Assembly (NCBI RefSeq): GCF_001742165.1
Contig: NZ_CP016443.1
Location: 744,001-808,000, forward strand
Source of the DNA: Burkholderia stabilis
GTDB taxonomy: Bacteria; Pseudomonadota; Gammaproteobacteria; Burkholderiales; Burkholderiaceae
DNA: 64,000 bases
Direction: 5' to 3'
In this document: one piece after another, positions 3,486 to 32,407 of the stretch
Position numbering within the stretch: position 1 is the stretch's first letter
How the letters are laid out: the number at the start of each line of letters is the position of its first letter
The notes under the pieces: generated by a model
Databases searched by the model: none
Told to the model about the DNA's origin: nothing
The model's input: the letters and a program-made list of their open reading frames with translations, nothing else
Program-made: the position numbers and the translations under genes

Positions 3486-4282
3486 GCGTGCTGGCTGCTG
3501 ACCGACAGCACTTCGCCCGTCATGTACGACGCGTAATCGCTTGCAAGAAACACCATCACGTTCGCGACCTCCCAGACTTCGGCGGCGCGCCCGAAGGCTT
3601 CGCGCGACGCCAGTTGATTCAGCAAGTCGGCCGGCGCCGACTTCTTCAGAAAATCGTGCATCGCGATGCTCGGTGCAACCGCGTTGATGCGCACGCCGTA
3701 CGGCGACGCTTCGAGCGCCGCGCAGCGCGTGAGCGCCATCACGCCCGCTTTCGCCGCCGCGTAGTGCGCCTGTTCCGCCTGCGCGCGCCAGCCGAGCACC
3801 GATGCGTTGTTGACGATCGCGCCGCGGCCTCGGGCCTGCATGTGCGGCAGCATCGCGCGCGTCATCCGGAACGTCCCGGTAAGGCTAATGTCGATCACGC
3901 GCGACCATTCGGCATCGTCCATATCGACGATGCGGGTCGACCCGCCGAGCCCGGCGTTGTTGATCAGCACGTCGACGCCGTCGAGCTTGTCCTGCGCGTC
4001 GGCCACCAGCGCCTGCACGTCGGCTTCCACCGAGACGTTGCACAGGCGGCCGTAGATCTGTTGCAGCCCCGTTTCGGCGCGCAGCGTCTGCACCGCCTGT
4101 TCGAGGCGTTTTTCGTGGATGTCGGAGATGAACAGCGCGCGGCAGCCTTCCTCCGCGCAGCGGCGCGCGGCCGCGAAGCCGATGCCCGCGCCGGCGGCGG
4201 CCGTGATCAGCACCGATTTGCCGGCGAGCAGCTGGTGGCCCGGCACGTAGGGCGGCGCTTTTGCAATCTGAAGTTCGGTCAT
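3482..4282 (-). CDS. ipdF: IpdF-like short-chain dehydrogenase
   Basis: A 266-residue SDR with the nucleotide-binding turn TAAAGAGIG (residues 28-36), NNAG (108-111), catalytic Ser161 and Tyr174-x3-Lys178 (HYAAAKAG). The stretches [33 protein letters not shown] and [14 protein letters not shown] match, as I recall it, the actinobacterial IpdF of the KstR2 regulon very closely. IpdF oxidises the ring hydroxyl of hydrindane-derived CoA esters in degradation of the last two steroid rings. The start overlaps the preceding acyl-CoA dehydrogenase stop by ATGA, and its own stop overlaps the MaoC start. This is among the strongest single indicators that the operon degrades steroid nuclei. Confidence 0.9.
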
Positions 4283-15628: not shown

Positions 15629-16525
15629 TTACCGGTATCCGATGCTGAAATCGTGGCCCCACTGGCTCACCTTCGTGGCCTCGAACACAGCGTGCTTCGA
15701 CCAGTCGACCGTGAGGCCGCCGAAGCCGTATTCGAGATCGAAGCCGCCGGGGGTCTTCATGTAGAAAGAGATCATCTGGTCGTTGCAGTGCCGGCCGAGC
15801 GTCGCGGACATCTTCACGTCGTGCGCGGCGACGCGATCGAGCGCGCGGCCGACTTCGTCCATCGAATCGACTTCGGCCATCACGTGCACGCAGCCGGACG
15901 GCACCGCCATCTCGAACAGCGCGAGGCTGTGATGGCGCGCGTTGCGGCAGTGCATGAAATGGATGCGCTTTTCCGGTTCGGCCGGATCGGGCGTGAACTT
16001 GACGCGGTAGATGTCGGACAGCTCGAAGCCGAGCACGCCGCGCACGAATGCATCGGTCGCATCGAACTGCGGCGCGGGCAGCACCGCGTGGCCGAGCCCC
16101 ATGTCGCCGGTGACGAAATGCGCAACGCCCAGCGGCGACACGAAGCGACGGAAGTCGCAGCGCGCGCCCCAGTACAGCTCGTGGCGGTTGCCGGACGGGT
16201 CGGTGCACCACGCCATCGCCTGCACGCGGCGCAGCGCGACTTCGTCGCGGGTTGCGCGCACGGGCTCGACGCCTGCGCGCTGCAGCGCCGCCAGCGCGGC
16301 GTCGAACGCCGCGCCGTCGGGCAGCTCCCAGCCCGACGCGAAATAGCGGTCGGTCGAGCCGGGAACGATCACGTAGCGGAAATCGCGCTCGTCCATCTTC
16401 AGGTACAGCGCGCCGTCGGGCGCGTCGAGCGCCTGCATGCCCAGCACGTCTTCCGCGTAGCGGCGCCACGCATCGACGCGCGTCGCCTCGACGACGACAT
16501 AGCCAAGCGCACGGACATCGATCAT
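15629..16525 (-). CDS. hsaC: HsaC/BphC-type extradiol ring-cleavage dioxygenase
   Basis: A 298-residue type I (two-domain VOC) extradiol dioxygenase. The iron ligands expected from BphC (His146, His210, Glu260) have counterparts at His146 (MGLGHAV), His199 (RHHSLALF) and Glu265 (FDLEYG). In steroid degraders this enzyme (HsaC/TesB) opens the aromatised A ring of 3,4-DHSA by meta cleavage. ATG 16525 is preceded by a very strong ribosome site (AGGAGGAGG), matching a position as first gene of the long operon. Upstream lies a 430-bp regulatory gap with the TCGTC-N6-GACGA dyad. A biphenyl-type dioxygenase is an alternative, but no biphenyl genes are nearby. Confidence 0.9.
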   Translation of the reverse strand: MIDVRALGYVVVEATRVDAWRRYAEDVLGMQALDAPDGALYLKMDERDFRYVIVPGSTDRYFASGWELPDGAAFDAALAALQRAGVEPVRATRDEVALRRVQAMAWCTDPSGNRHELYWGARCDFRRFVSPLGVAHFVTGDMGLGHAVLPAPQFDATDAFVRGVLGFELSDIYRVKFTPDPAEPEKRIHFMHCRNARHHSLALFEMAVPSGCVHVMAEVDSMDEVGRALDRVAAHDVKMSATLGRHCNDQMISFYMKTPGGFDLEYGFGGLTVDWSKHAVFEATKVSQWGHDFSIGYR

Positions 16526-16955
16526 GTCGGCCTCCTCCTGGTTCAGAATCCGTTGTTCGTGAAAGGATTCTGGCCGGTCGGGGGTGGTGTTACATCGTCT
16601 GTTGGGACGAGAGGCGGCGGGGAATCGTGGCGGTGCGGGAGAACCCTGCGACGCGGGTTTCGCGTTCAAGGGGACGGAAAGCCCGGACAGGTTGTGGCCT
16701 GATTGCCGCATTGCAGCAGCGGGAATCAGGCGAAACGGCTCGGTCGTCTTGCACGGGTGCGGAGCGAGGTGCCGGCGGCAAGCGTGCCGGCTGGCCGGGA
16801 CGAGCGATTCGGCGCGTTATTTTTCATGGCTGCAACGGGTGTGACGCACGACGGCAGCTAGAATCGTGCGTGCCCCCTTCGTACTTCGGAACATCGCTTG
16901 CGCCGACCGCTCTGGCTACTTGGCGCATCGGTATCCGGTTCTTTCATGCCGACTC
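16526..16955. other. 430-bp intergenic regulatory region upstream of hsaC
   Basis: A divergent gap between hsaC (minus) and the NTF2-like gene (plus). No plausible coding frame is present. It holds the AGGAGGAGG ribosome site of hsaC and a dyad at 16595-16610 that is repeated before other steroid genes. A TGTAAC-like element on the minus strand around 16588-16593 could be part of a promoter, but I could not assign a convincing -35. Confidence 0.6.
16595..16610. promoter_or_regulatory. dyad operator candidate 1 (hsaC operon)
   Basis: The sequence TCGTCTGTTGGGACGA has inverted arms TCGTC and GACGA around six bases. With the preceding CA it shares CATCGTCTGTTKGGA with a site upstream of the LLM monooxygenase gene (28566-28580), and CATCGTCNGNNGGGACGA with a site before hsaA (27275-27292). 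It lies about 70 bp upstream of the hsaC start, a suitable place for an activator or repressor site. Confidence 0.55.
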
Positions 16956-17348
16956 ATGTCCACCTTTACCGAAGCTGACCAGCAAGCCGTCGAACAGGCC
17001 GAGCATGCGATCGCGGCCGCACATCTCGATCTCGACCACGGGATCGATGTCATCGCCCACCTGCTTCATCCCGATTACGTACTGATTCAGCCTGGCGGCG
17101 ACATCGAAACGAAAGATGACGTGCTCGCTTCGTACCGCTCCGGCACTCGACGGTGGGATACAGCGGCGGTGGACCAACTGAGCACCCGCGCGCACGGCGA
17201 TGCCGCAATCGTGATCGGCCGCTGGCGCGCAACCGGGCAGAACGGCGCGGAGCATTTCGATTATCAGGCGCGCTTTCTTTCCGTCTGGGTCCGGCACGAC
17301 GGGACGTGGCGGAACATTGCGTATCAGTCGACCGAGATTGGTGCTTAG
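16956..17348 (+). CDS. NTF2-like (DUF4440/SnoaL-type) protein
   Basis: A 130-residue alpha+beta-barrel protein of the NTF2-like superfamily. Its pattern is an N-terminal helix followed by a substrate-pocket segment (LLHPDYVLIQPGGDIETKDDVL), with C-terminal strands ending FLSVWVRHDGTWRNIAYQST. This is the usual DUF4440 layout. The ATG at 16956 follows TCATGCCGACTC without a strong Shine-Dalgarno; an upstream ATG at 16866 is in frame but adds non-family residues. It is divergent from hsaC. The same fold includes ketosteroid isomerase, which is interesting beside steroid genes, but the ketosteroid isomerase catalytic pattern is not evident. Enzyme function is unknown. Confidence 0.8.
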   Translation: MSTFTEADQQAVEQAEHAIAAAHLDLDHGIDVIAHLLHPDYVLIQPGGDIETKDDVLASYRSGTRRWDTAAVDQLSTRAHGDAAIVIGRWRATGQNGAEHFDYQARFLSVWVRHDGTWRNIAYQSTEIGA

Positions 17349-17409
17349 GCAAGCCTGGGGCAAACGCGAGGCGATGGCGCCTCTGTGGCGAACCAGCGCC
17401 ACCTCCGTG

Positions 17410-17826
17410 TCAATCGAACGGATTCAGCAGCCGGACACCGGTGCGAGCGAAATCGTCGACGTTGCGCGTAACGACCGTGAGATCGTTGATCAACGCGGTG
17501 GCCGCGATCAGCTTGTCGAGCTCGTGCGTCGGATCGGGCACGCGCAAATGCCCCCACATCTGGCTGGTCTCGATATCGACCGGCAGGATGTTCGGCGCAT
17601 AGCCGGACAGGATCGTCGCCATCCATGCTTCGAGAGCCGACGCCTGCGGATGATCGCCTCGATGACGGATCAGGTCGACGCCGCGCCGAAGCTCGGCCAC
17701 CGTCACGACGGACAGATACAGCGGGCTCGCGTCGGCTTCGGCTTGCCTGAAGAACGCCCGCACGCCGCGGTTGGTTCGCTTGCCCTTCCTGATTTCGCTG
17801 ATGACGTTCGTATCAATCAAAAACAC
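17410..17826 (-). CDS. vapC: VapC/FitB-type PIN-domain toxin
   Basis: A 138-residue PIN-domain ribonuclease with the acidic metal-binding residues in place. These are Asp in FLIDTNVISE at the start, Glu in VTVAELRRG, Asp in HELDKLIAATA and Asp in VVTRNVDDF. A GTG start at 17826 is preferred: GAGG sits at a good distance, and the protein then begins right at the first PIN strand. It overlaps the antitoxin gene by 14 bp. An ATG at 17880 would add 18 non-family residues. PIN toxins cleave RNA, often tRNA or rRNA. The pair probably acts as addiction or growth-control module inside the steroid locus. Confidence 0.9.
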   Translation of the reverse strand: MFLIDTNVISEIRKGKRTNRGVRAFFRQAEADASPLYLSVVTVAELRRGVDLIRHRGDHPQASALEAWMATILSGYAPNILPVDIETSQMWGHLRVPDPTHELDKLIAATALINDLTVVTRNVDDFARTGVRLLNPFD

Positions 17827-18049
17827 GCCTGACCTCGCCGGAATCCTGAATCCGCTGGAAATCCGTGTCTTCGCCAGCATCGGGCATGCTCATCAGCACT
17901 TGCGCAAATGACCTTCGCTTCGGCCGGCCGAGCGCATCGGCCAGGATGGCCCGATGTTCGGCCTCGGCACTCCTGCCATTTGCCGCAGCCTGCTCGCGCA
18001 GGCTCTGAACGATACTGTCATCCACGTTACGCACCAGTAGATTTGCCAT
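17813..18049 (-). CDS. vapB: VapB/FitA-type antitoxin
   Basis: A 78-residue protein whose first 45 residues (MANLLVRNVDDSIVQSLREQAAANGRS) have the ribbon-helix-helix pattern of FitA/Phd-like antitoxins. The C-terminal tail, containing SMPDAGEDTDFQ and ending RRVFD, would wrap the toxin. ATG 18049 has a GGAGG six bases upstream. The downstream toxin gene overlaps by 14 bp, so the pair is translationally coupled. A palindrome over its -10 box suggests autorepression by the VapBC complex. Confidence 0.88.
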   Translation of the reverse strand: MANLLVRNVDDSIVQSLREQAAANGRSAEAEHRAILADALGRPKRRSFAQVLMSMPDAGEDTDFQRIQDSGEVRRVFD

Positions 18050-18065
18050 AAGTCCCTCCATCCAG

Positions 18066-18115
18066 ATTGCTATCAATGATAGCGTCACGACCATGAATTG
18101 CAAGCATTGCTATCA
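18066..18115 (-). promoter_or_regulatory. vapBC promoter with autoregulatory palindrome
   Basis: Read on the minus strand, a -35 TTGCAA (18098-18103) and a -10 TATCAT (18076-18081) are separated by 16 bp. A perfect 15-bp palindrome GCTATCA-A-TGATAGC (18069-18083) covers the -10. The ten-base block ATTGCTATCA occurs at 18066-18075 and again at 18106-18115, 40 bp apart (about four helical turns), flanking the promoter. This is the arrangement expected for cooperative binding of a VapBC complex. Confidence 0.7.
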
Positions 18116-18449
18116 CCGTCAGTGGCGGAGGGAAACGATAGTTGGCGCCGGCGAACAGCAAAGGCCGCATGAATACACATGGCTTGCGCCGCTCGCCCGA
18201 CACGTCGAACTGCAGTCCGCAAGGTAAGTCGAATCGGAAAAATGAAAAAGACGGCCGATTGGCTATCGGCAGCCGTTTCTCGCGTACAGATGTGCAAACC
18301 GACGCAGCGCGCGGCCGCATCCACCGATCGATCGCGCAACACGCCCGCCGGCCACCTGGCAACGTATTCCGGATCGCCAGCAACCGAACCATTGCCATGC
18401 CCTCATCGCCAATCCACCGTTCGGCGCGCGCAACAACAGCTCGACCCGC
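18116..18449. other. intergenic stretch between vapBC promoter and OMP gene
   Basis: About 330 bp with lower G+C than the neighbours and only short, compositionally unconvincing frames on the plus strand. The OMP gene ends at its left... boundary (18450) and vapBC is transcribed away from it. I see no terminator hairpin or repeat that stands out. Confidence 0.45.
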
Positions 18450-19109
18450 TCAGAACCGATACGAAATCCCGATCTGCAAAACCGGATACCACCGATAGCG
18501 CGACATCACCTGCCTCAGTTGGTCCAGCCCGCTCGCGACCAGGATCTGGCTCTTCGCCGGTCCGACTGCCGCCGCCAGTTCCGGCGACAGCGAATACGCG
18601 CATTTCGGCATCCCGTACGCGACGCCGAGGTCGGCGACGAATCCCAACCCTTTCGATGCCGGCCGGTGCCCGTAGCCGATTCCGACATACGGCATCACCG
18701 CCGGATAACGCGCTTGCGCGACCGCGTACATCCCCGGCATCGCCGGATAGCGCTTGCCGCCGAATACGTAAGTGCCGTTGGTCGGCACCGATACGCCGCG
18801 AAGTTCGTCATCGTTGAAGCGCATCCCGATCGTCGCGCGAAAGCCGCTGCCTCGCCAAGGAAAGATGTCCGCGTACAGACCGCCCTGACGCAGCTTCAGG
18901 TCGTCCTGATAGCGATTGCCGGCCACCGTGAAGTCGTGCGAAAGATCGATCGCATTGAAATCCGCGTGCGCGCCCAGCATCGAATTGAAGCTCACGGCCG
19001 CACCGATGCCGACGCCCTGCGTGCCGCCCTGCAGGTAGATCTCCTGCGCGTGCGCGCTCGCGGCACACATCACCGCGACTGCGGCCCATTGGTTCACTGT
19101 CGTTTTCAC
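18450..19109 (-). CDS. small outer-membrane beta-barrel protein
   Basis: A 219-residue exported protein with a signal peptide (KTTVNQWAAVAVMCAASAHAQ). It continues with alternating hydrophobic/polar strands rich in Gly and Tyr, and a C-terminal Phe (LQIGISYRF), the classic outer-membrane assembly signal. A GTG start at 19109 is chosen because GGGGAGG lies five bases upstream; the ATG at 19127 lies before that ribosome site. Strand count by eye is about eight to ten. It sits between the two steroid blocks, so uptake or sensing of a hydrophobic compound is conceivable, but no substrate motif supports it. I do not recognise the family. Confidence 0.75.
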   Translation of the reverse strand: MKTTVNQWAAVAVMCAASAHAQEIYLQGGTQGVGIGAAVSFNSMLGAHADFNAIDLSHDFTVAGNRYQDDLKLRQGGLYADIFPWRGSGFRATIGMRFNDDELRGVSVPTNGTYVFGGKRYPAMPGMYAVAQARYPAVMPYVGIGYGHRPASKGLGFVADLGVAYGMPKCAYSLSPELAAAVGPAKSQILVASGLDQLRQVMSRYRWYPVLQIGISYRF

Positions 19110-19925
19110 GGGCGCCTCCCCCGACATGTGCCGGGCGCGCCGTCCCGCCGCATGCAGCCCCTGCGCAATGCGTGGCGCGAACCCCGGCACGACACCTTGC
19201 AAGCAAGCTTGCTGTTCGACGGATCGGGAACACGGTGCCCGTGCGCATGACCGATACGACATGCGCGACGGATACGCCGCAACAGACGGCACCTGCGCCC
19301 CGATCCGATTCCCCGTTTGTTTCGATGTCGTTACATGCCGTCGATGCGATCGTCGTTCTGGCCAATTTCGTTTGCAGCGGCGGCCCCGGGTCAACCGCAA
19401 AGCGCGTGCCATGCGGCGCAAACCGAAGCGAGGCAAGCGTTACCGCCGAACATGCACGGTCACGTGGGGGAAGAATCGGAGGAAATGTTTCAGGAACGTA
19501 TCCGTATTCGGCAGACCAGGCCGAAACCCGGCCAAAACGCGTGATTCGCCCCGTCGTACGTCGAGATCGCAACGCCTGCCGAACAAGGCCGCACGGCCGT
19601 CAGCGCATGCGCGTGGCCGTCCCGATCAATCGAGTACCGGGGAATACTTTGAAAAAGCGTTGCAGAAGTGTGACCTCGCGCAGGGTGCAAGCGATGCAGA
19701 CGCGCAATCGTGCGTGACGAGGCAGGGTGAATACCGATGCGTGCGCATGCAACTTGTTCATGTCACGCCCGGAAGCGATACGAGAGCCGGAACGACTGCC
19801 GCGAGCCGATCCGCAGATCGGCCGCGTTGTCGGCGTTCTGAAAAAGGAAGAATGGTGATCAATATCGACACGCGGGACGACCGGCACGCAAGCGCGGTTG
19901 CCCGAACGTGCAATTCCGCGCCGAG
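19110..19925. other. 816-bp stretch without a convincing gene
   Basis: The G+C content looks lower than in flanking genes, and the open frames present (for example 19172-19717 and 19126-19974, plus strand) have no codon bias, no family motif and Arg/Thr-rich composition, so I do not call them. It contains the upstream region of the OMP gene and the downstream region of the block-2 operon. A 7-bp stem hairpin GCCGATC-CGCA-GATCGGC at 19805-19822 could be a weak terminator for the operon ending at 19926. It may be a remnant of an insertion separating the two steroid blocks. Confidence 0.5.
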
Positions 19926-20699
19926 CTACAACCCATACCCTCCGGACACATTCAACTGCTGCCCGGTAATGTAATCCGCCCTGTCCGACGCCAGAAACAC
20001 CGCCGCCCGCCCCACGTCGTGCGCCTTCCCCCAGCGCTTGAGCGCGAGCATCTTCTGCGTCTCGTCGATCCACGCCTGGTCGAACTGCCCCTGTTCGAGC
20101 AGCACCGGAAACATCCCGGCCTCGATCACGCCGACCAGGATCGAATTCGCGCGAATGTTGTAACGCCCCTCCTCGCGCGCCAGCCCCTTCACCAGCGCCT
20201 CGTTCGCGGCCTTCGGCGCGACCGACAGTCCGTCTCGATCAGGCCAGCGCAGATGCCCCGCCGAACCGAGCGTCACGAACGACCCGCCGCCTGACGCACG
20301 GAAGTGCGGCAGCGCGGCTTTCGCCGCGACGAAGAAACCGATCGTCTCGACGTCGATCGCGCGGCGCCAGTCGTCGTGCGTCATATCGCCGATATGACGC
20401 TGGTTCACGAACGGCCCGGCCGCCCAGACAACCGTATGCACCCGGCCATGCGCGTCGATCGCGGCCGCGAGCGCGGCGTCGACCTGCGCGGGATCGGTCA
20501 CGTCCACGCAGTGCGTGGTAGCCGCCACACCTTCGGCCCGAATATCACGCGCAACGCGCTCGGCCACGTCGGCCTTGCTGCGATAACCCACCGCGACCGG
20601 CACGCCGGCACGCGCAAACTCGAGCGCGACGCCCTGCCCGATCCCGCCGCTGCCGCCGAACACCAGCACCGCGCCCTGCGCAAATCCGTTGTCGTTCAT
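19926..20699 (-). CDS. SDR-family protein with missing catalytic Tyr
   Basis: A 257-residue Rossmann-fold SDR. The cofactor motif is FGGSGGIGQG (14-23); NNAG is replaced by WAAG (92-95), and Ser146 is present. The usual Tyr-x3-Lys is Ser159-x3-Lys163 (LSVAPKAANEAL). The C-terminus has FLASDRADYITGQQLNVSGG, normal for the family. It is the last gene of block 2, 32 bp after fadD3. Loss of the Tyr suggests a changed mechanism, an isomerase or binding role, or decay, although the reading frame is intact. ATG 20699 is the only reasonable start. Physiological substrate unknown. Confidence 0.88.
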   Translation of the reverse strand: MNDNGFAQGAVLVFGGSGGIGQGVALEFARAGVPVAVGYRSKADVAERVARDIRAEGVAATTHCVDVTDPAQVDAALAAAIDAHGRVHTVVWAAGPFVNQRHIGDMTHDDWRRAIDVETIGFFVAAKAALPHFRASGGGSFVTLGSAGHLRWPDRDGLSVAPKAANEALVKGLAREEGRYNIRANSILVGVIEAGMFPVLLEQGQFDQAWIDETQKMLALKRWGKAHDVGRAAVFLASDRADYITGQQLNVSGGYGL

Positions 20700-20731
20700 G
20701 CGTCCATCCCGTTCGTGTGTCGCGGCGGCGC

Positions 20732-22318
20732 TCAGGCCGCCGACTCGGTTCCCGCGCGCAGCCGGTACTTCAGCACCTTGCCCGCCGCGCTCGTCGGCAA
20801 TTGCTCGACGAACGTGAAGTGCCGCGGCACCTTGTAGTTCGCCATGTTGCGGCGCGCCCAGTCGTTCAGTTCGTCGGCGTCGGCATGCGCGCCCGGACGC
20901 AGCACGACATACGCGTGTCCGACCTCGCCCAGCCGCGTATCGGGCACGCCGACCAGCGCAACCTGTGCGATGGCGGGATGCGCGGCGAGCAGCCGCTCGA
21001 TCTCCGCCGGATAACAGTTGAAACCGCCGACGATGAACATGTCCTTGATGCGGTCGGTGATCTTCAGGTTGCCGTTCGCATCGACGCAGCCGAGATCGCC
21101 CGTATGCAGCCAGCCGTCCGCATCGACGGTCTCGCGTGTCGCCTCGGGCTGGTTGAAGTAGCCGCGCATCACGTTGTAGCCGCGCACCCAGATTTCGCCG
21201 GTCTCGTCCGGCCCGAGCGGCGCGCCGCCCGGCCCCGCGATGCGCAGTTCGACATCCGGCATCGGCCGCCCCGACGTATAGGCGACGGTTTCCGCATCGT
21301 CGCCCTGACGGCACAGCGTCGCGAAGCCGCACGATTCGGTCAGCCCGTAGCCGGTCAGCACCGTCTCGAAGCCGAGCTCCGCGCGCATCCGCTCGATCAG
21401 GCTCGGCGCAATCGCCGCCGCGCCCGTTACCGCGATCCGCAGCGACGACAGGTCGCGCGTCGAGCGATCGGGCGCGTCGAGCAGCGCGTAGTACAGCGTC
21501 GGCGGGCCGGGCAGCACCGACACACGATCGTCGGCGACACGCCGCAACACGTCGGCCGGCTGGAACACGAGATGCGGCAGCACGGTCGCGCCGCTCGACA
21601 GCGCGGCAAGCCAGCCGGCCTTGTAGCCGAACGTGTGGAAGAACGGGTTGACGATCAGGTAGCGGTCGTCGCGGCGCACGCCGGCGATCGTCGCCCACGC
21701 TTGCGCGGCACGCAGGTTCTGGCCATGCGTCGTCATCACGCCCTTCGGGCGGCCCGTCGTGCCGGACGTGAACATCAGGTCCATCACGGTATCGGGCGTG
21801 ACCTGCGCCTCGCGCTCACGCACCGCGGCCAGCGGCACCGCCGCGCCACGCGCGAGGAACGCGTTCCAGGTCTCGTCGCGCGCGCCGGACGGCGGCGCAC
21901 CGTCGAACACGACGACGCGTTCGAGCGTCGCCGGCCGGTGCGGCGCGAGCATCGCCGGATAGGATTCTCCGAGGAAGGCGCCACAACAGAACAGCAGCCG
22001 CGCGCCGCCGTCGTGCAGAATGCCGCCGACCTCCATCCCCTTCATCCGCGTATTGACCGGCACGAGGATCGCGCCGACGGTGTGGATTGCGAGCGCGGCG
22101 ACGATCCATTGCGGCAGGTTCGGCGCCCAGACCGCGATGCGGTCGCCGGCGTCGATGCCGCTCGCCAGCAGCGCGCGGGCCGCGTCGAGGCGCGCCGCGT
22201 CGAGTTCCGCGTAGGTCAGCCGGCCATGCTCCGACTCGATCGCCGGGTGCGCGCCGTGGCGCGCGGCAGCCCGCGCGATCAGCGCGGGCGTGGTCAGGAT
22301 TTCATTGTCCATCGTCAT
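20732..22318 (-). CDS. fadD3: FadD3-like HIP-CoA ligase
   Basis: A 528-residue adenylate-forming CoA ligase. The P-loop is MFTSGTTGRPKG (about 180), followed by VNPFFHTFGYKAGWLAAL, VLPGPPTLYYALLD, TGYGLTESCGF (about 315), the GWLHTGDLG/ITDRIKD hinge, and the C-terminal Lys in SAAGKVLKYRL. The NPFF-FGYKAG and LPGPPT blocks match my memory of FadD3, which activates the two-ring propionate HIP to HIP-CoA, the entry to C/D-ring degradation. Three in-frame ATGs (22324, 22318, 22312) are possible and none has a strong ribosome site; 22318 is a compromise. It is 40 bp below the KshB-like gene in the same operon. Confidence 0.9.
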   Translation of the reverse strand: MTMDNEILTTPALIARAAARHGAHPAIESEHGRLTYAELDAARLDAARALLASGIDAGDRIAVWAPNLPQWIVAALAIHTVGAILVPVNTRMKGMEVGGILHDGGARLLFCCGAFLGESYPAMLAPHRPATLERVVVFDGAPPSGARDETWNAFLARGAAVPLAAVREREAQVTPDTVMDLMFTSGTTGRPKGVMTTHGQNLRAAQAWATIAGVRRDDRYLIVNPFFHTFGYKAGWLAALSSGATVLPHLVFQPADVLRRVADDRVSVLPGPPTLYYALLDAPDRSTRDLSSLRIAVTGAAAIAPSLIERMRAELGFETVLTGYGLTESCGFATLCRQGDDAETVAYTSGRPMPDVELRIAGPGGAPLGPDETGEIWVRGYNVMRGYFNQPEATRETVDADGWLHTGDLGCVDANGNLKITDRIKDMFIVGGFNCYPAEIERLLAAHPAIAQVALVGVPDTRLGEVGHAYVVLRPGAHADADELNDWARRNMANYKVPRHFTFVEQLPTSAAGKVLKYRLRAGTESAA

Positions 22319-22358
22319 AGGCATCAGGTTGCCGTGCGCGCCGCCGGCGCGCCACGGC

Positions 22359-23402
22359 TCAGTCGGGAAACACCACGCGCAGCGCATCGCTCGCGGGTCG
22401 CGCGCAACAGGCCAGCGTCCAGCCGGCCGCGATCTCGTCGTCGTCGAGCACGTGGTTACTGTCGAGCGCGACCTCGCCGCGCTCGATCCGGCACATGCAC
22501 GCGCCGCATTGCCCCATCCGGCAGGAATTCGGCGCCGGCACGCCCGCGCGCAGCATCGCGTCGAGCAGCGTTTCGCCAGGCGCGCTGTCGAACGCGAACG
22601 CGTCGCCGTCGAGCACCGTCTCGATCGCCGCGCCTTCGCCGGCGCCTGCCGCTGCCGCGGCCGACGCCGCGGTCTCGGCCTGCGCCGGCGCATCGGGCAG
22701 CGACGCGAACCGCTCGACGTGCACGCGCGCACGCGGCAGCCCGAGGCCGAGCATCGCGGCCAGCGCGTTCTCCATGAACAGCGCGGGCCCGCAGATGAAC
22801 GTCTCCTGCTGGCTGAACGGCCGCGCAAGTTCTTCGAGATGGCGTTGCTGCGGAATGCCCTGCACGCTGTCGAGCCAGTGAATCACGCGCACGCGGCCTG
22901 GATGGCGCTGCGCGAGCTGCTGCAGCTCGTCGCGGAAGATCACCGAGCGCTCGTCGCGGTTCGCATAGATCAGCGTCAGCATCCCGCGCCCGTGCACGAG
23001 CGCCGATTTCAGGATCGACAGCACGGGCGTGATACCGCTGCCGCCCGCGAACAGCAGCAGGTCGCCGTCGAGCGCGCGCGGCGTGAACACGCCGGCCGGC
23101 GGCAGCACGTCGAGCGTGTCGCCCGCCTGCACGCGGTCGCACAGCCAGTTCGACGCGCGGCCGTCGCGCACGCGCTTGACGGTGATCTTCGGCGCGGCAT
23201 CGATGCCCGGCGCGCTCGACAGCGAATAACAGCGCGTGACGGTCGCGTCCGCGCACGGCACGTTCAGCGTCAGGAACTGCCCGGGCCGGTAAGCGAATGC
23301 GTCGCGCAGCGCGGCGGGCACGTCGAACACGAACGAGCACGCGTCGTCGCTTTCGGCAATCACTTCGGCAACGGTCAGCCGGTGGAAGCGCGAATCGCTC
23401 AT
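22359..23402 (-). CDS. kshB: KshB/HmpA-type ferredoxin-NAD(P)H reductase
   Basis: A 347-residue iron-sulfur flavoprotein. An N-terminal FNR-type domain has RCYSLSSAP for FAD, LFAGGSGITPVLSIL for the nucleotide, and FICGP. It is fused to a C-terminal plant-type [2Fe-2S] ferredoxin with Cys294-x4-Cys299-x2-Cys302-x29-Cys332. This is the architecture of KshB, the electron donor to 3-ketosteroid 9alpha-hydroxylase (KshA), and of PaaK-type reductases. The Rieske oxygenase KshA is not in the window, so the partner must be encoded elsewhere. ATG 23402 is 10 bp after the small ORF's stop. A linker of Ala/Glu (about 240-260) joins the domains. Confidence 0.88.
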   Translation of the reverse strand: MSDSRFHRLTVAEVIAESDDACSFVFDVPAALRDAFAYRPGQFLTLNVPCADATVTRCYSLSSAPGIDAAPKITVKRVRDGRASNWLCDRVQAGDTLDVLPPAGVFTPRALDGDLLLFAGGSGITPVLSILKSALVHGRGMLTLIYANRDERSVIFRDELQQLAQRHPGRVRVIHWLDSVQGIPQQRHLEELARPFSQQETFICGPALFMENALAAMLGLGLPRARVHVERFASLPDAPAQAETAASAAAAAGAGEGAAIETVLDGDAFAFDSAPGETLLDAMLRAGVPAPNSCRMGQCGACMCRIERGEVALDSNHVLDDDEIAAGWTLACCARPASDALRVVFPD

Positions 23403-23412
23403 GGCCGGCTCC

Positions 23413-23628
23413 TCATGCCGTGCCGGCAACATGGCCGGCCCGTTCGCGACGGTCGGCGACGACCTGCGCTTCGTTCGACGCCAGCGCCGGCGCGAGGCAC
23501 GCGAACCCGTTCAGCACATGCGATGCCGCACCGCCGAGCAGGCGCACGATCTCGCGCGCGGCCGATGCATCGGCGCCGCGCCGGGCATCGCCGGCTTGCG
23601 CGGTGCGGCCGTTCAGTCTGCGTGTCAT
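23413..23628 (-). CDS. small hypothetical protein in steroid operon
   Basis: A 71-codon frame between hsaB and the KshB-like gene. It has a GGAG eight bases before its ATG, strong G/C third-position bias and gaps of 38 and 10 bp to its neighbours, all consistent with a real operon gene. The protein has a charged N-terminus and a more hydrophobic middle (REIVRLLGGAASHVLNGFACLAPALA). No signal peptide or known motif is visible. Function unknown; it could also be a non-coding spacer. Confidence 0.45.
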   Translation of the reverse strand: MTRRLNGRTAQAGDARRGADASAAREIVRLLGGAASHVLNGFACLAPALASNEAQVVADRRERAGHVAGTA

Positions 23629-23666
23629 GGATCGTCTCCGCGGTGGCTGGAAAACCTGTGCGGCCA

Positions 23667-24185
23667 TCACGCGGCCGCACGGCTCGCGGGCGCGCCGGGT
23701 GTCGTATAGGCGCCGTCGAGATAGACGAGCGGATCGACGTCGCCGCTCATCAGCACCTCGCGGATGCGCCCGATGAACACCGTATGCGTGCCGTATTCGA
23801 AGCGGCCGTCCTGCTCGCACACGAAGCTCGCCTGCGAATCGCGCAGATACGGCACGCCGTGCGGCGACGTGTGCCAGTCGCCGGTCGTGAAGCGCGCTTC
23901 GCCCTTCAGGCGGCCGCTGCAGTCGATCGCGATGCCTTCGTGCCGTGCCGACAGCACGTTCACGCAGAACGGCGCTCCGGCATCGAGCGGCGGATACAGC
24001 GATGCCGAACGATTGATGCAGATCAGCAGCGACGGCGGCTCGGTGGACAGCGAATCGACCGCCGTCGCGGACATCGAGTAGCGCCGGCCGTCGTGCGCGC
24101 TGCTGATGACCGTGACGGAGCGCGCGAGGCGGCGCATCGCGAGCAGCATGTCGGTGCGCAGCGGGTGGGTGGTGAGATCGCTCAT
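23667..24185 (-). CDS. hsaB: HsaB-like flavin reductase
   Basis: A 172-residue flavin reductase domain protein. RRLARSVTVISSAHDGRRYSMSATAVDSLSTEPPSLLICI covers the flavin site, followed by FCVNVLSA and the terminal VFIGRI strand. HsaB supplies reduced flavin to the HsaA monooxygenase in A-ring opening. Its ATG overlaps the kstD-like stop by 4 bp (ATGA), so production is coupled to that gene; hsaA is one gene further upstream. It might also serve the LLM monooxygenase at the head of the block. Other two-component reductases share this fold, so the name rests partly on context. Confidence 0.88.
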   Translation of the reverse strand: MSDLTTHPLRTDMLLAMRRLARSVTVISSAHDGRRYSMSATAVDSLSTEPPSLLICINRSASLYPPLDAGAPFCVNVLSARHEGIAIDCSGRLKGEARFTTGDWHTSPHGVPYLRDSQASFVCEQDGRFEYGTHTVFIGRIREVLMSGDVDPLVYLDGAYTTPGAPASRAAA

Positions 24186-25942
24186 GGTCGTACTCCGTCA
24201 AGTTCAGTCGTGGATGGCCGGGCTGCCCGGCCGCCGGCGTCGGCCGCCTGCGCGGCCAGGTGATCGGCGGCGATGATCCCGAAGGTCATCGCCGGACCGA
24301 GCGTCGAGCCCGCGCCGGGGTAGCTCGCGCCCATCATCGAAGCGCTGGTGTTGCCGATGGCGTAGAGGCCATCGATCGGCGTGCCGTCGCCGCGCAGCAC
24401 GCGGGCCTGCACGTCGGTGACGAGTCCGCCCTTCGTGCCGATGTCGCCCGCGTCGATCCGCACCGCGTAGAACGGCGCCTGGTCGACCGGCCCGAGGCAC
24501 GGGTTCGGCGTGTTCTGCGGATCGCCGTAGTACGTGTCGAAAGCGTTGTCGCCCTTGCCGAATTCGTCGTCGACGCCGGTGACCGCGTAGCGCGCCATGT
24601 CGCGCAGCGTGTCGCGCAGGCCGGCCGCGTCGACGCCGATCCGCGCGGCAAGCGCGTCGATCGTGTCGGCCTTCACGAGCACGTCGCGAAACGCTGCCGG
24701 AATCCGCGAATCGGGCATCATCGACGCCGGCATGATCGGGCCGCACGGGTATTTGCGGCGAAAGCGCGCGTCGAACACCATCCACGCAGGCACGCTGGCG
24801 CCGGTGCGCGCATGATCGCGATACATCGCCGGCACGAATTCGGAATACGGCGCGGCCTCGTTGACGAAGCGCTTGCCGAGACCGTTGACGATCACGCAGC
24901 CCGGCAGGTTGCGTTCGACGAACAGCGCGCGCTGCTTCTCCTCGCCCGCCACGCCGACCGTCGGCGCGCCCCACACGTGCTCCATCAGCGCCAGCGCGCC
25001 GCCGAGCCGGTGGCCTTCGGCGATCGCGTCGCCGGTGTTGGACGGCGGCGTCGCGCTCCATTGCGCCTGCGTCGGCTGCGGCAGGTAACGCTCGCGCATC
25101 GGCTGGTTGCGCTCGAAACCGCCCGCGCCGAGGATCACGCCACGCCGCGCGGCGATCGTCACGGGCTGCCCGAAGCGCTGCGCGCGCACGCCCGTCACGC
25201 GGCCGTCCACGTCGAGCAGGTCGCGCATCGGCGTGTCGAGCCACACCGGCACGTTGCGCTCGAGCAGCGCGTGGCGCAGCCCGCCGATCAGCGCGTTGCC
25301 GAGCGTCAGGCGCCGGTCGCGCCGCGTGCGGCGGCGCATCCCGAAGTCGAGCCAGTAGCGGCCGAACTGCGCGATCGCCAGCTTCATGAAGCCGGGCCCG
25401 CGCGAGAACAGCGTGTGCGCTTCCTTCGACGTCACCGCGACGCGCCCGCCGATCAGCGTGCCGGGCGACGGCGGCCGCAGCCGGTCGAACTCGTCGCCGA
25501 GCAGCCCGCCGTCGAACGGCAGCGGATCGAGCGCCCGATAACCGGGCATCGCGCCCGGCAGCTTCTGGAAATAGTCCGCGTACTTCGGCAGCGCCTGGTA
25601 GCGCACCGGCGTCTTCGATTCCAGGTAGCGCAGCATCTCCGGCGCGCGGTCGAGGTACGCGTCGAGCTTGTCGGGCGTCGACGCGCCGGCCACGCACGCG
25701 TCGATGTAGCGGCGCGCGGCCTCGCGCGTATCGGTCGCGCCGAGCTCGGCGATATGGTGATTGCACGGCACCCAGATGCCGCCGCCCGACACCGCCGACG
25801 TGCCGCCATACAGCCCCGTCTTCTCGATCACGACGACGGACAGGCCGCGGTCGGCCGCGCGGCACGCGGCGAGCAGCGCGCCCGCGCCGGAGCCGACCAC
25901 CACGACGTCGAACGTGTACTGCTGCGCTTGCGTGTCGTTCAT
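24182..25942 (-). CDS. kstD: 3-ketosteroid delta1-dehydrogenase-like flavoprotein
   Basis: A 586-residue FAD protein of the fumarate reductase/KstD family. The dinucleotide fold is VVVVGSGAGALLAACRAADRG (14-34), followed by VVIEKTGLYGGTSAVSGGGIW. A long catalytic domain contains YYGDPQNTPNPCLGP and APFYAVRI, where the Tyr corresponds to a proton-transfer Tyr of KstD. The C-terminal FAD part is GLYAIGNTSASMMGASYPGAGSTLGPAMTFG. KstD introduces the delta1 double bond that, with 9alpha-hydroxylation, opens ring B. The gap to hsaA upstream is 10 bp. A delta4-(5alpha)-dehydrogenase is a close alternative that sequence alone does not exclude. Confidence 0.88.
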   Translation of the reverse strand: MNDTQAQQYTFDVVVVGSGAGALLAACRAADRGLSVVVIEKTGLYGGTSAVSGGGIWVPCNHHIAELGATDTREAARRYIDACVAGASTPDKLDAYLDRAPEMLRYLESKTPVRYQALPKYADYFQKLPGAMPGYRALDPLPFDGGLLGDEFDRLRPPSPGTLIGGRVAVTSKEAHTLFSRGPGFMKLAIAQFGRYWLDFGMRRRTRRDRRLTLGNALIGGLRHALLERNVPVWLDTPMRDLLDVDGRVTGVRAQRFGQPVTIAARRGVILGAGGFERNQPMRERYLPQPTQAQWSATPPSNTGDAIAEGHRLGGALALMEHVWGAPTVGVAGEEKQRALFVERNLPGCVIVNGLGKRFVNEAAPYSEFVPAMYRDHARTGASVPAWMVFDARFRRKYPCGPIMPASMMPDSRIPAAFRDVLVKADTIDALAARIGVDAAGLRDTLRDMARYAVTGVDDEFGKGDNAFDTYYGDPQNTPNPCLGPVDQAPFYAVRIDAGDIGTKGGLVTDVQARVLRGDGTPIDGLYAIGNTSASMMGASYPGAGSTLGPAMTFGIIAADHLAAQAADAGGRAARPSTTELDGVRP

Positions 25943-25952
25943 CGTGGCCTCG

Positions 25953-27146
25953 TCAGATGAAGAAGTCGGTGTTCTCGCGACCGAGCATCACCGCGCCGAG
26001 GTTCTGGCCGAAGCGGTCCACGTTGTTCGCGTAGTGCGCGCGGGCCGCATGCAGGTCGAGGAAACGGCGCACCAGCGGATTGCGGTGATAGATGCCGTTG
26101 CCGCCCGCATAGCGCAGCAGCGTGTTCGCAGCCTGCGCGCAACGCTCGGCGACCTGCGCCGACTGGTAGCGGAAATGCACGCGCCGCTCGATCGACACGG
26201 CCGGACCGCCGGCGACCGACGCCATCAGTTCGGCGAAATTGCGCTTGAGCAGCACCTTCATCTCGTCGATCGCGACGGCCGCGTTCGCGCATGCGTTCTG
26301 CGCGCCCGGATCGTCGGTCGTTTTCGCGCCGCTGTTCGCGGACACCCGTGTGGCCGCATAACCGGTGAAATCGTCGAGCGCGCCCTGCAGCGCGCCGATG
26401 CACGACGTGCACACCGCGCGCACGAAGATCTGCGCGAACGGCAGCTTGAACAGCGGCGCGTCGTTGATTGCCAGGCCGGGGCTCGTACCCATCATCCCGT
26501 CGATCGCCTTGTGCGTGCGGTACGCGGGCACGAACACGTCGTCGACGACGATGTCGTGGCTGCCCGTCGCGCGCAGGCCGAGCACGTCCCAGTCCTGCTC
26601 GATCCGGTAGTCCGATTTCGGCAGCAGGAAGGTGCGGTATTCCGGCGGCTGGCCGGCAACGGCCGGCGGCACCAGCGCGCCGAGGAACACCCACTCGCAC
26701 AGTTCGCTGCCGCTCGAGAATTTCCAGTGGCCCGACAGGCGGAAGCCGCCGTCGACCGGCGTGACGCGGCCGACCGGCATGTAGGTCGACGCGATCAGCG
26801 TCGCCGGATCGTTGCCCCACACCTCCTGCTGCGCGCGCTCGTCGAACAGCGCGAGTTGCCAGTTGTGCACGCCGACGACGCCGTACACCCACGCGGTCGA
26901 CATGCAGCCGCGCGCGAGCGCCATCTGGATGTCGAAGAAGGTCTGCGGATCGAGCTCGTAGCCGCCGTAGCGCTTCGGTTGCAGCACCTTGAAGAAGCCG
27001 GCGGCCTGCATGTCGGCGATCGTCTCGGCCGGGATGCGGCCCTGCGCTTCGGCCTGCGCGGCGCGGCCGGCCAGCGTCGGCGCCAGTGCCTCGGCCCGCT
27101 CGATCAGCGTGGCGGCCAGTGCGTTCGTATCGTTGTCGCGATGCAC
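25953..27146 (-). CDS. hsaA: HsaA-like flavin-dependent monooxygenase
   Basis: A 397-residue acyl-CoA-dehydrogenase-fold monooxygenase (group D). Features are the N-terminal helical domain (AGFFKVLQPKRYGG), the middle beta domain (STYMPVGRVTPVDGGFRLSGHWKFSSGSELCEW, then LGLRATGSHDIVVDDVFVP) and a C-terminal helical domain with LLRYAGGNGIYHRNPLVRRF. It lacks the acyl-CoA dehydrogenase catalytic Glu pattern. HsaA, with HsaB, hydroxylates 3-HSA to the catechol opened by HsaC; the length is as in HsaA (about 394). ATG 27146 is preceded by a GGAG-type site. A dyad candidate lies 130 bp upstream, suggesting a second promoter inside the block. Confidence 0.88.
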   Translation of the reverse strand: MHRDNDTNALAATLIERAEALAPTLAGRAAQAEAQGRIPAETIADMQAAGFFKVLQPKRYGGYELDPQTFFDIQMALARGCMSTAWVYGVVGVHNWQLALFDERAQQEVWGNDPATLIASTYMPVGRVTPVDGGFRLSGHWKFSSGSELCEWVFLGALVPPAVAGQPPEYRTFLLPKSDYRIEQDWDVLGLRATGSHDIVVDDVFVPAYRTHKAIDGMMGTSPGLAINDAPLFKLPFAQIFVRAVCTSCIGALQGALDDFTGYAATRVSANSGAKTTDDPGAQNACANAAVAIDEMKVLLKRNFAELMASVAGGPAVSIERRVHFRYQSAQVAERCAQAANTLLRYAGGNGIYHRNPLVRRFLDLHAARAHYANNVDRFGQNLGAVMLGRENTDFFI

Positions 27147-27312
27147 GAATGTCTCCTGTGGAACGGAGCGCGCGCCGCGGCGCCTGCTCCGGTCTCTCTC
27201 AAAGTTGTTCGTCGCGGCCCGCGCCGCGAGCGATGGGTCCTGCCGCCGATGGTCGGCGTCGCGCGGCCGCGCCGCATCGTCCGAAGGGACGACGGGCGCG
27301 GCCCTGCCCGCC
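27147..27312 (-). promoter_or_regulatory. hsaA upstream region with dyad operator candidate 2
   Basis: Between the LLM gene and hsaA. The dyad TCGTCC-GAAG-GGACGA (27277-27292) has perfect 6-bp arms and matches the hsaC-upstream element at 15 of 18 positions when CA is included. No clear sigma70 boxes were found, so an activator-dependent promoter is possible. Confidence 0.5.
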
Positions 27313-28452
27313 TTATGCGCAGGCCCGTTCCTTCTCCTTGTTGAAGAACGGGATCACGTGCTCGCCGATGTTGCGGATCGTCTCCATCTGCGCTTCGTGC
27401 GGCACCGTGCCCATCTGGCACAGGAACAGCACTTCGTCGACACCCGCTTCCTGCAGGCGGCCGACGTAGCCGATGCAGTCGTCCACCGTGCCGTACGCGT
27501 GGTTCGGGTTCATCATCGCGAGGGCCGGGTCGGCGAAGTTCACGACGACCTCCTCGGACGCGAAGCGCGAGCGGATCACCATCTCGCCGGTGTCGGCCTG
27601 CACGAGGTCGTCGCCCCACTTCGCCGGGTCCGGACGCTCGCCGCCCGTGTACCAGTACGCGAGCGATTCCATGAAGTAGCGCTGGCCGCGGATGCCGATC
27701 TTGCGGGCGGCCTGGCCGTCAGCCATCACGACCGTCGGGCACAGCGCCGCGAGGTGCTGGGTCGGGCGGAAGCCGACCTGATCTTCCGGCTTGCGGTTCG
27801 CCCATGCTTCGCGGTAAACCGCGTTCTTCTTCGCGACTTCGTCCGGGCCGCCGAAACCGAGCACGAGCGCGCCCATGCCGCGCTGGCCGGCGCGCAGCAG
27901 CGCGTCGGTGTTGGTACACGCGAGGTACATCGGCGGGTGCGGGTCCTGGAACGGCTTCGGGTGAATCGGGCGCTTCGGGATCTTGATGTACTTGCCGTCG
28001 TGCTCGATCTCGTCCTGCACGAACATCTTCGGCACGAGGTACATCGATTCGTCGATCATCGGCTGCAGTTCGTTGAGGTCGTAGCCGAATGCGCCCGCTT
28101 CCTGCTGGCTGCCGCCCTTGCCGACGCCGAAATGCACGCGGCCGCCCGACAGGATGTCGAGCAGCGCGACGCGCTCCGCGACCTTGATCGGATGGTTCAT
28201 CGCCGGCGGCAGGCACACGACGCCGTGGCCGAGGCCGATGCGCGTCGTGCGGCCGGCCAGGTACGCAAGGAAGGTTTCGGGCGCGCTCATGTGCGCATAG
28301 TTGGTCAGCGACGTGTGCTCCACGCACCAGATCGTGTCGAAGCCGACCTGTTCGGCGAGCAGCGCCTGTTCGACCGTCTCCTTGAACACCCGGTGGTCGC
28401 CCTCGCGCGACGCGTCGGTGGTCTGGGCTTCGTAGATAAGGGAAAACTTCAT
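27313..28452 (-). CDS. LLM-class flavin-dependent monooxygenase
   Basis: A 379-residue luciferase-like TIM-barrel protein. It begins KFSLIYEAQTT and has the flavin-site regions VEHTSLTNYAHMSAPETFLAYLAGRT, GHGVVCLPPAMNHPIKVAERVALLDILSGGRVHFGVGKG and LVLGFGGPDE. The family uses FMNH2 or F420H2 for oxygenation, including Baeyer-Villiger and aldehyde oxidations. It heads block 2, 166 bp upstream of hsaA, with the shared regulatory motif before it. No LLM enzyme belongs to the canonical steroid route I know, so it may handle a side chain or a special ring substituent, perhaps with HsaB as reductase. ATG 28452 starts the first barrel strand. Confidence 0.88.
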   Translation of the reverse strand: MKFSLIYEAQTTDASREGDHRVFKETVEQALLAEQVGFDTIWCVEHTSLTNYAHMSAPETFLAYLAGRTTRIGLGHGVVCLPPAMNHPIKVAERVALLDILSGGRVHFGVGKGGSQQEAGAFGYDLNELQPMIDESMYLVPKMFVQDEIEHDGKYIKIPKRPIHPKPFQDPHPPMYLACTNTDALLRAGQRGMGALVLGFGGPDEVAKKNAVYREAWANRKPEDQVGFRPTQHLAALCPTVVMADGQAARKIGIRGQRYFMESLAYWYTGGERPDPAKWGDDLVQADTGEMVIRSRFASEEVVVNFADPALAMMNPNHAYGTVDDCIGYVGRLQEAGVDEVLFLCQMGTVPHEAQMETIRNIGEHVIPFFNKEKERACA

Positions 28453-28565
28453 TGCGTGCGTCTCCATGTATGTTGGACGAGTCGGGGTCGCGCAGGCCGC
28501 CCGCACGATACGGACGAATAGCGACGGTCCACGAATGGGAGTGTCGGCGCGCGGGCGGCGGCAGG

Positions 28566-28583
28566 CATCGTCTGTTTGGAGTA
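28566..28583. promoter_or_regulatory. operator candidate 3 (LLM gene / VOC gene divergent region)
   Basis: CATCGTCTGTTTGGA at 28566-28580 differs at one base from the hsaC-upstream element CATCGTCTGTTGGGA; the second arm here is degenerate (GAGTA). It lies 114 bp from the LLM start and about 130 bp from the divergent VOC gene, so one bound regulator could serve both. Confidence 0.5.
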
Positions 28584-28712
28584 ACGGGGTACGTGCGGGA
28601 ACAGAGGGGTTTCACGGTCATCCGATCGGACTGCGTGAGCACGCGAACGGCGCGCTAGCATCGACGGGCGGCGCGTTGCACGCCGCCCACATCAAGACAA
28701 GGGAGAACCGGG

Positions 28713-31231: not shown

Positions 31232-32407
31232 ATGACCACGGCGCCCCCGGCCCTTCCGCCGCACCTTGCCCAATCGAAGCTGACGCTCGAGCAGTTCGAC
31301 GCGATGCTCGCGACAATCTACGAGGGGCCGCTGGAAGACGTGCCGTGGGGCGGCGCGCTGGAGCAGATCCGCGTGCACCTGCAGGCGAACTACGTGACGA
31401 TGATCCTGCGCTGGCCGGCCAGCGGCCACGCGGGGCTGATGATCAATGCGTCCGAGCACAGTGCGCCGCTGCCGGGCGTCGCGTCGTACAACCACTACTA
31501 TTACGCGCTCGATCCGTTCGTGAACCTGCCGACCGATCGCGTCGTCACCGTCGACGAGCTGCTCGGCGTGGGCGTCTGGCGCGGCAGCACCATGTATCGC
31601 GAGTTCATGGAACCGCACGACGTCGGCTACCTGATGGGCGCCGACCTGCGCACGCACGACGGCGTCGAATGCCGTTTCCGCGTGTGCCGCCCGCATCGCG
31701 GCGACGCGTTCTCGGCGACCGACAAGGCGGCCTGCAATGCGCTGCTGCCGCACCTGAAGCGCGCGGTGCGGCTGCACGCGAAGTTCGGGATGGTCGAATC
31801 CGAGCGCACGCTGTACGCGAGCGCCATCGACCGCATGCTCGTCGGCACCGCGATTCTCGACGAGCGCGGCGCGATCATGAAGACCAATTCCGTCGCGGAC
31901 GAGATCTTCGCCGAATGCGACGGCCTGCGCGTGCGCGGCGGCGCGCTCGAAGCGTCGTATCCGCTGGAAGACCGCAAGCTGCAGAAGATGATCCGGCAGG
32001 TGCTCGCGGAACGCGCGGGCGGCATGCCGACGCTCGTGCAGGCGATCGCGGTGCCGCGCCCGTCCGGCAAGCCGCGGCTCGGCGTGCTGATCCGCGCGGT
32101 CCCGTTGAGCGAATGGTCGGAGGACAATCCGCGCCGGCCGGCGTGCGCGGTGTTCATTCGCGACGCCGAGCGCAAGTCGCAGGCGTCGCACGACATCGTG
32201 CGCAAGCTGTTCGACCTCACGCCGGCCGAAACCGCGCTGGCGCTCGCGCTCGTCAACGGGCAGACGCTCGAGGAAGCCGCCGACGCGCTCGCGATCAGCA
32301 AGAACACCGCGCGCTCGCATTTGCGCGCGATTTTTTCGAAGACGGGGGTGACGCGGCAGGCGACGCTGGTGCGGACGTTGTTGAACAGTGTGTTGTCGTT
32401 GGGGTGA
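31232..32407 (+). CDS. LuxR-family transcriptional regulator
   Basis: A 391-residue regulator. The N-terminal 190 residues form a PAS/autoinducer-like sensory region (VTMILRWPASGHAGLMIN, then YYYALDPFVNLP). A second PAS-like segment covers about 200-320 (RMLVGTAILDERGAIMKTN). The C-terminal LuxR-type helix-turn-helix is LTPAETALALALVNGQTLEEAADALAISKNTARSHLRAIFSKTG (about 335-378). ATG 31232 has AGGAG ten bases upstream. The layout resembles TeiR, the LuxR-type testosterone-inducible regulator of Comamonas (from memory). It is 2.8 kb from the steroid operon and the only regulator near it, so it is a candidate steroid activator. This is inference. Confidence 0.87.
   Translation: MTTAPPALPPHLAQSKLTLEQFDAMLATIYEGPLEDVPWGGALEQIRVHLQANYVTMILRWPASGHAGLMINASEHSAPLPGVASYNHYYYALDPFVNLPTDRVVTVDELLGVGVWRGSTMYREFMEPHDVGYLMGADLRTHDGVECRFRVCRPHRGDAFSATDKAACNALLPHLKRAVRLHAKFGMVESERTLYASAIDRMLVGTAILDERGAIMKTNSVADEIFAECDGLRVRGGALEASYPLEDRKLQKMIRQVLAERAGGMPTLVQAIAVPRPSGKPRLGVLIRAVPLSEWSEDNPRRPACAVFIRDAERKSQASHDIVRKLFDLTPAETALALALVNGQTLEEAADALAISKNTARSHLRAIFSKTGVTRQATLVRTLLNSVLSLG

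Follow-up and report, generated by a model that had tools for sequence, protein, structure and literature searches.

Predicted 20-bp boxes for a TesR/TeiR-like LuxR-type activator upstream of scattered steroid genes in Burkholderia stabilis

The stretch of Burkholderia stabilis DNA analysed here (64,000 nucleotides, henceforth the window) spans positions 744001-808000 of C2, replicon 2 of an 8.53-Mb genome in three contigs, and carries an hsaC-like extradiol dioxygenase gene, an hsaA-like monooxygenase gene followed by kstD, and a luciferase-like monooxygenase (LLM) gene. In the gaps upstream of hsaC, hsaA and the LLM gene, all of which are read leftward, lie three copies of a dyad, TCGTC-N6-GACGA, which a sequence-only reading had proposed to be the operator of an as yet unknown steroid regulator. 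All three were found where that reading had placed them, each as part of a longer element of 20 bp than had been described (Table 1). In the direction of transcription this element has the form NNTMNTCC-NNN-YRGACGATG, with the consensus NNTMNTCCNNNYRGACGATG in orthologous loci, and the strong, nearly invariant half-site is the promoter-proximal one. These elements are very probably boxes for a LuxR-type activator resembling TesR and TeiR, which would act at scattered steroid genes from a class II position.

The short dyad has six exact matches in the window against an expected 0.34, and in none of 100 shuffles were six or more found; the 18-mer CATCGTCTGTTKGGACGA, allowing up to three mismatches, has four matches against 0.06 expected, again with four or more in none of 100 shuffles. 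The short-pattern matches at 31542, 48409 and 52108 fall outside the top 16 sites of a fuller model and look like chance, whilst that at 3915 is part of a fourth candidate site, within a coding sequence. Across the genome, CATCGTCYGNNNGGANKA, a pattern composed after four of its five sites had been seen, has five exact matches, every one within C2:579-773 kb and three of them being the reported dyads; with one mismatch it has 29 matches, the five exact ones included, against 10 for the reversed pattern. A further form, TCYNNNYRGACGATG, has 13 exact matches in the genome and none when reversed. The shuffle counts and this genome-wide rarity bear out the low chance probability claimed from the sequence alone, and the whole-genome search proposed with the dyads did not refute them.

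Table 1. Boxes, -10-like hexamers and genes discussed in the text; positions are those of the window unless a contig is given.
Feature	Position	Strand	Evidence or remark
Predicted LuxR-type box upstream of hsaC, TCTCGTCCCAACAGACGATG in the direction of transcription	16593..16612	-	present in 32/32 scored loci
-10-like hexamer CAGAAT, 20 nt downstream of the hsaC box	16567..16572	-	spacing count
hsaC-like extradiol dioxygenase, first gene of its unit	15629..16525	-	NF045631 311.9 bits, below the 450-bit cut-off; ATG at 16525 placed by eye
Predicted LuxR-type box upstream of hsaA/kstD, CGTCGTCCCTTCGGACGATG	27275..27294	-	37/42 scored loci pass
-10-like hexamer GACCAT, 20 nt downstream of the hsaA box	27249..27254	-	spacing count
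hsaA-like monooxygenase oxygenase subunit	25953..27146	-	NF045629 394.5 bits, below the cut-off of 450
kstD, next after the hsaA-like gene	24182-25942		
Predicted LuxR-type box upstream of the LLM gene, GTTACTCCAAACAGACGATG, distal half degenerate	28566..28585	-	42/42 scored loci
-10-like hexamer GACACT, 20 nt downstream of the LLM box	28540..28545	-	spacing count
LLM-class (luciferase-like) monooxygenase gene	27313..28452	-	
Candidate intragenic box CATCGTCGATATGGACGATG within the SDR gene (3482-4282)	3913..3932	-	matrix score 27.3, null maximum 16.4
Hexamer GACATT, 20 nt downstream of the intragenic SDR box	3887-3892	-	
LuxR-B, paralogue of the box-linked regulator	31232..32407	+	GerE E=1.8e-05; no full box upstream
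LuxR-A	C2:583726-584913		outside the window; box in promoter
LuxR-C	C1:3880589-3881701		43% identical to LuxR-A

Conservation was assessed in 43 orthologous loci of Burkholderia, Paraburkholderia, Cupriavidus and Ralstonia, fetched with kstD as the query, 42 of which had scored gene starts; the window kstD is 88-95% identical to that of about 20 of the Burkholderia genomes (L074-L093, L104, L105). A second kstD-like frame, with one in-frame TAG, was observed at G000:C3:654173-655891 (L071). Boxes scoring at least 12 of 14 lie upstream of hsaC in 32/32 scored loci, of the LLM gene in 42/42, of hsaA in 37/42 and of the cluster luxR gene in 19/33, so that comparison of the orthologous gaps, also proposed together with the dyads, did not refute them either. 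This cut-off retained 130 of the 149 locus rows (42 loci), corresponding to 117 unique sequences in which T6, C7, G17 and A18 are invariant and G14, A15 and C16 nearly so, the distal half being looser, although the cut-off is itself biased toward consensus letters. The inverted repeat is perfect in Burkholderia guangdongensis (L090) and asymmetric at most target promoters.

The 20 nt that follow the box are variable in sequence, and at their end stands nAnnnT, exactly 20 nt downstream in 117/117 unique sequences from four unrelated promoters, with the A and T invariant; inside a single promoter the runner-up offset reaches 11/28 (hsaC) and 10/18 (luxR). In a sigma-70 -10 element it is the A at position two and the T at position six that matter most. 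The hsaC boxes of G1075 and G870 are likewise followed at 20 nt by CAGAAT, the hexamer of the window hsaC promoter. In eight genomes outside those from which the rule was made, covered by 14 stretches of 20 kb (two of them shorter), 26 of 42 boxes are followed by nAnnnT at 20 nt, near-palindromes being counted once per strand, and each other offset between 8 and 35 nt is taken by 0-3 boxes; GACGAT words without a distal half have it at 20 nt in 21/228. Counts for single genomes include G133 11/14, G870 5/6, G388 3/4, G940 2/4, G961 2/3 and G1022 1/2. In B. stabilis itself, all six TCYNNNYRGACGATG matches at C2:579-773 kb have a hexamer at 19-21 nt, two sites having a spacer of 19 or 21 nt instead of 20, as against 0/7 of the matches elsewhere. 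A second promoter on the opposite side of the LLM box, or of the right-hand one of two SnoaL boxes, was considered and rejected, there being by eye no nAnnnT at 20 nt.

Class II lux boxes are inverted repeats of about 20 bp centred near -42.5 and overlapping the -35 element. Counting back from the -10-like hexamer, from which the transcription starts are derived, would put the centre of the present box near -42.5 too, in the place of a -35 element. This position and the fixed 20-nt spacing together favour a box for an activator over an operator for a repressor.

The same signals predict further members of a regulon, with at least ten candidate sites on replicon 2 beside hsaC, hsaA, LLM, hsaD-like, SnoaL, old yellow enzyme (OYE) and luxR genes. 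A matrix built from the 43 loci, using four promoters of other species, was scanned over C2:640-847 kb, with eight 207-kb Markov sequences as the null. Eight distinct sites exceeded the best null score of 16.4: those of hsaC, the LLM gene, hsaA and two divergent SnoaL genes, one inside a short-chain dehydrogenase/reductase (SDR) gene, one before a gene for a 67-aa protein, which is followed by a FAD-binding reading frame (by eye), and one lying 67 bp upstream of an alpha/beta hydrolase gene, for which HsaD is the top NCBIfam hit at 199 bits (cut-off 400, not reached). In 5/5 relatives the hydrolase and 67-aa-gene boxes are kept with their hexamers, as are the right SnoaL box and the left one, the hexamer A of the latter being lost in one genome (G141). 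Outside the scanned stretch, sites precede an OYE-type gene (C2:579239, with a 19-nt spacer) and luxR-A (C2:583572).

The intragenic SDR box is kept in 7/7 relatives, with variation at one of 14 synonymous-eligible codons against 69/236 gene-wide, making it the fifth least variable of 250 windows. This is suggestive of an internal promoter that would serve the MaoC-like gene (2997-3485) and the genes after it. In several genomes of other families, a box was seen just upstream of the orthologous SDR gene.

The boxes co-occur with a particular type of LuxR protein. Among 30 genomes, a homologue (E<=1e-60) is present in 14/14 of those with kstD (E<=1e-200) and 0/16 of the others; exact boxes number 3-6 per kstD genome against 0-2, the reversed control giving one match across all 30. 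Such LuxRs are rare, being found in 4/349 genomes of the order (E<=1e-40), 7/369 of the class (E<=1e-30) and 10/299 of the family of G240 (E<=1e-60), the best 5-6 candidates having been scored in most genomes. For six distant LuxRs (L197-L202, identity 27-30%), the 800 bp upstream contained no convincing box. In G133, of another genus, kshA-, hsaC-, hsaA- and hsaD-like genes are among the first behind boxes, and in other families boxes precede hsaC, hsaA, hsaD, kshA-like or SDR genes, with LuxRs 36-45% identical to LuxR-A. One such genome, G388, has a near-perfect box before hsaC with hexamers on both sides, and its LuxR gene about 12 kb from hsaC. In G870 and G1075, of a third family, the box stands before a cluster that runs from hsaC through a CoA-transferase gene and its partner (ipdA/ipdB) to an SDR gene and then the LuxR gene.

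This last gene order is that of the tesB...tesR cluster of Comamonas testosteroni (PMC13101464; gene table of strain JLU460ET, PMC10637631), and on this ground the box-linked LuxR is probably a regulator of the TesR/TeiR kind. There, TesR (strain TA441) or TeiR (ATCC 11996) is a LuxR-type positive regulator needed for the induction of steroid genes (PMC6678751, PMC8700777, PMC6895838), and the JLU460ET table gives the LuxR gene a rise of 4.88 in what we take to be a testosterone comparison (PMC10637631). The sequence-only reading was right that these are conserved regulatory sites of steroid transcription units, but their geometry suggests an activator box instead of an operator, and the relatives' gene order indicates a known kind of regulator. 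No published box for TesR/TeiR or for a Burkholderia steroid regulon was found in the literature searched, which lacked the 2004 TeiR paper and most subscription papers and so gives no proof of novelty; the papers listed by a search with the motif letters were all off topic by title. Steroid degradation in Burkholderia has already been predicted by comparative genomics (PMC4810484). The regulation of bile-acid degradation in Proteobacteria has been described as largely unknown (PMC8399759). According to one source, which cites others, tesR-like genes occur in C. testosteroni alone (PMC6895838); TeiR-like genes are noted in P. stutzeri Chol1 in another (PMC8399759).

Unlike the C. testosteroni systems, the B. 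stabilis genome has at least three related LuxR genes among the best five of 42 candidates scored: LuxR-A, LuxR-B, which is 57% identical to it with a nearly identical recognition helix, and LuxR-C. GerE, the LuxR C-terminal helix-turn-helix, is matched narrowly, the cut-off of 23.5 bits being passed with 24.7 and 24.6 bits, and no acyl-homoserine lactone (AHL)-binding Pfam domain was found in the LuxR protein at E<=0.1. A structure model of LuxR-A (mean pLDDT 81, pTM 0.62) has GAF/PAS-like sensor parts and the LuxR helix-turn-helix, and its matches in the PDB include phytochrome cores, DhaR and SdiA/RhlR, the listed TM-scores by query being at most 0.35. The likeness to lux boxes and to class II activation of the LuxR and TraR type lies in an inverted repeat of roughly 20 bp that precedes a sigma-70 -10, covers the -35 region and is centred near -42.5; the half-site (RGACGATG), the asymmetric conservation, the missing AHL domain and the predicted GAF/PAS-like sensor are all different. 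The KstR and KstR2 regulons of actinobacteria are similar in that one dyad-reading regulator controls parts of the 9,10-seco steroid pathway, but here the box differs from the KstR motifs, the protein family is another and the effect is most likely activation rather than repression.

Co-variation of paralogue and box supports LuxR proteins as the readers. An inverted pair of a sister sequence, CTTCGTCCGGGTGGACTAA, was seen at G000:C1:3884812-3884880 (L140, L193), flanked by a DUF1214 gene and a gene that by eye is cysD-like; a further copy, at C2:1879870, precedes what by eye is a SnoaL-like gene. In 8/8 genomes having LuxR-C, CTTCGTCCNNNNGGACTAA is found no more than about 3.5 kb from its gene, and nowhere in seven Burkholderia genomes without any such LuxR. 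As all eight also carry LuxR-A, co-occurrence alone cannot separate the paralogues; the neighbourhood does. A fourth paralogue, 41% identical to LuxR-A, was noted at G011:C2:1320299-1321441 (L126, L194), with CATACTCCGGACGGACGAGA 294 bp upstream of the match.

Several observations weigh against the interpretation as a LuxR-type activator box. Rows under the cut-off include hsaA in 5/42 loci and luxR in 14/33 (11 Burkholderia LuxR-B genes and three of Cupriavidus type, with 10-11 of 14), and no box was found upstream of the LuxR homologue of G388 or of one of the two in G240. The boxes of the eight-genome test had already been seen before it, and two of its genomes performed poorly (G1012 1/6, G856 1/3). 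Co-occurrence was scored for LuxR alone among regulator families; kstD genomes other than Burkholderia have several exact box matches on other contigs, and G020:C7 carries a perfect palindrome, CATCGTCCGATCGGACGATG (L196:6924-6943), with neither kstD nor a LuxR of this family detected. Published accounts describe TeiR as a kinase located in the membrane at the cell pole (PMC6678751, PMC8399759), which would need reconciling with direct DNA binding. Lastly, the cluster LuxRs of L107-L109 (Cupriavidus, Ralstonia) branch with LuxR-B and LuxR-C rather than LuxR-A, if weakly (support 87/63).

This tree bears on which LuxR reads the boxes. The sequence-only reading had named as one candidate the protein encoded at 31232, which is LuxR-B; a LuxR-type reader is indeed the most likely one, but LuxR-A is the better candidate for the main role. 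LuxR-B adjoins the steroid cluster, and the L107-L109 proteins, 59.8-63.6% identical to it and 56.1-61.8% to LuxR-A, are as near or nearer to it; only L109 among these loci has a box of 12. In favour of LuxR-A, a palindrome lies about 135 bp upstream of its gene in B. stabilis and G011, and in Burkholderia L090-L092, Burkholderia sp. Ax-1719 and Paraburkholderia the luxR gene that bears a box within the steroid cluster is its orthologue (74-91% identity). The Paraburkholderia copy is beside the LLM and hsaA genes; cepacia-type genomes instead have LuxR-B beside the steroid cluster and LuxR-A elsewhere, in B. stabilis about 176 kb from the hsaC box. The LuxR-B promoter reaches just 9-10 of 14 in 11/11 scored loci. 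We consequently rejected LuxR-B as sole candidate, a decision weakened by L107-L109, and regard it as unlikely, if still worth weighing, that LuxR-B alone reads the boxes and LuxR-A has another job; as their recognition helices are almost the same, either or both may bind. A half-site-like stretch, GATTAGACGATC, was observed upstream of LuxR-B (window 30990-31060), with related stretches in several cepacia-type loci, and may be a decayed box. A phage-integrase-family gene (window 32568-33761) also adjoins LuxR-B.

Considerably less probable is a repressor, of the TetR type (for instance an analogue of KstR2) or another family, that would block the promoters until a steroid-CoA appeared. Inverted repeats of the 6-N4-6 kind are common for TetR repressors, which could also make use of a site covering the -35 region. 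KstR and KstR2 act in this manner in actinobacteria (PMC6678751), and for C. testosteroni both a LuxR-type and a TetR-type protein have been reported to repress a steroid dehydrogenase gene (PMC6678751, PMC8700777). Against a repressor stand the box at the -35 position, with its 20-nt distance to the -10 fixed across unrelated promoters, and the fact that the box tracks the LuxR gene (14/14 against 0/16) and sits in the luxR-A promoter; moreover, bile-acid-degrading Proteobacteria are said to lack homologues of KstR (PMC8399759). That the dyads arose by chance in GC-rich gaps, as the short matches elsewhere in the window might suggest, is contradicted by the shuffle counts, genome-wide rarity and cross-family conservation and practically refuted by the fixed spacing and co-occurrence, and was rejected.

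Under the favoured interpretation, a dimer of the TesR/TeiR-like activator, with its predicted GAF/PAS-like sensor part and C-terminal helix-turn-helix, would bind the 20-bp box in the presence of a steroid or of one of its breakdown products, and most likely recruit sigma-70 RNA polymerase to weak -10 elements by class II activation. One regulator would then switch on a regulon whose genes, a luxR gene among them, are dispersed across some 190 kb of replicon 2. Extending this to the family, we lean slightly towards TesR/TeiR-like proteins across several Burkholderiales families being direct class II activators, not phosphorelay kinases, with one 20-bp code before most steroid promoters; paralogues would have split the code (CATCGTC against CTTCGTC half-sites) for a second regulon by cysD/cysNC-like genes, and one box would have been retained within a gene to serve as an internal promoter. 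The box and its fixed spacing allow regulon members to be predicted from sequence, flagging likely steroid genes among unassigned ones (SnoaL-like, OYE, LLM and the 67-aa protein), and offer candidate promoters for steroid biosensors. They also provide a code in the DNA that can be tested for a regulator whose mode of action has been unclear, and bear on whether TeiR acts by direct DNA binding or as a kinase.

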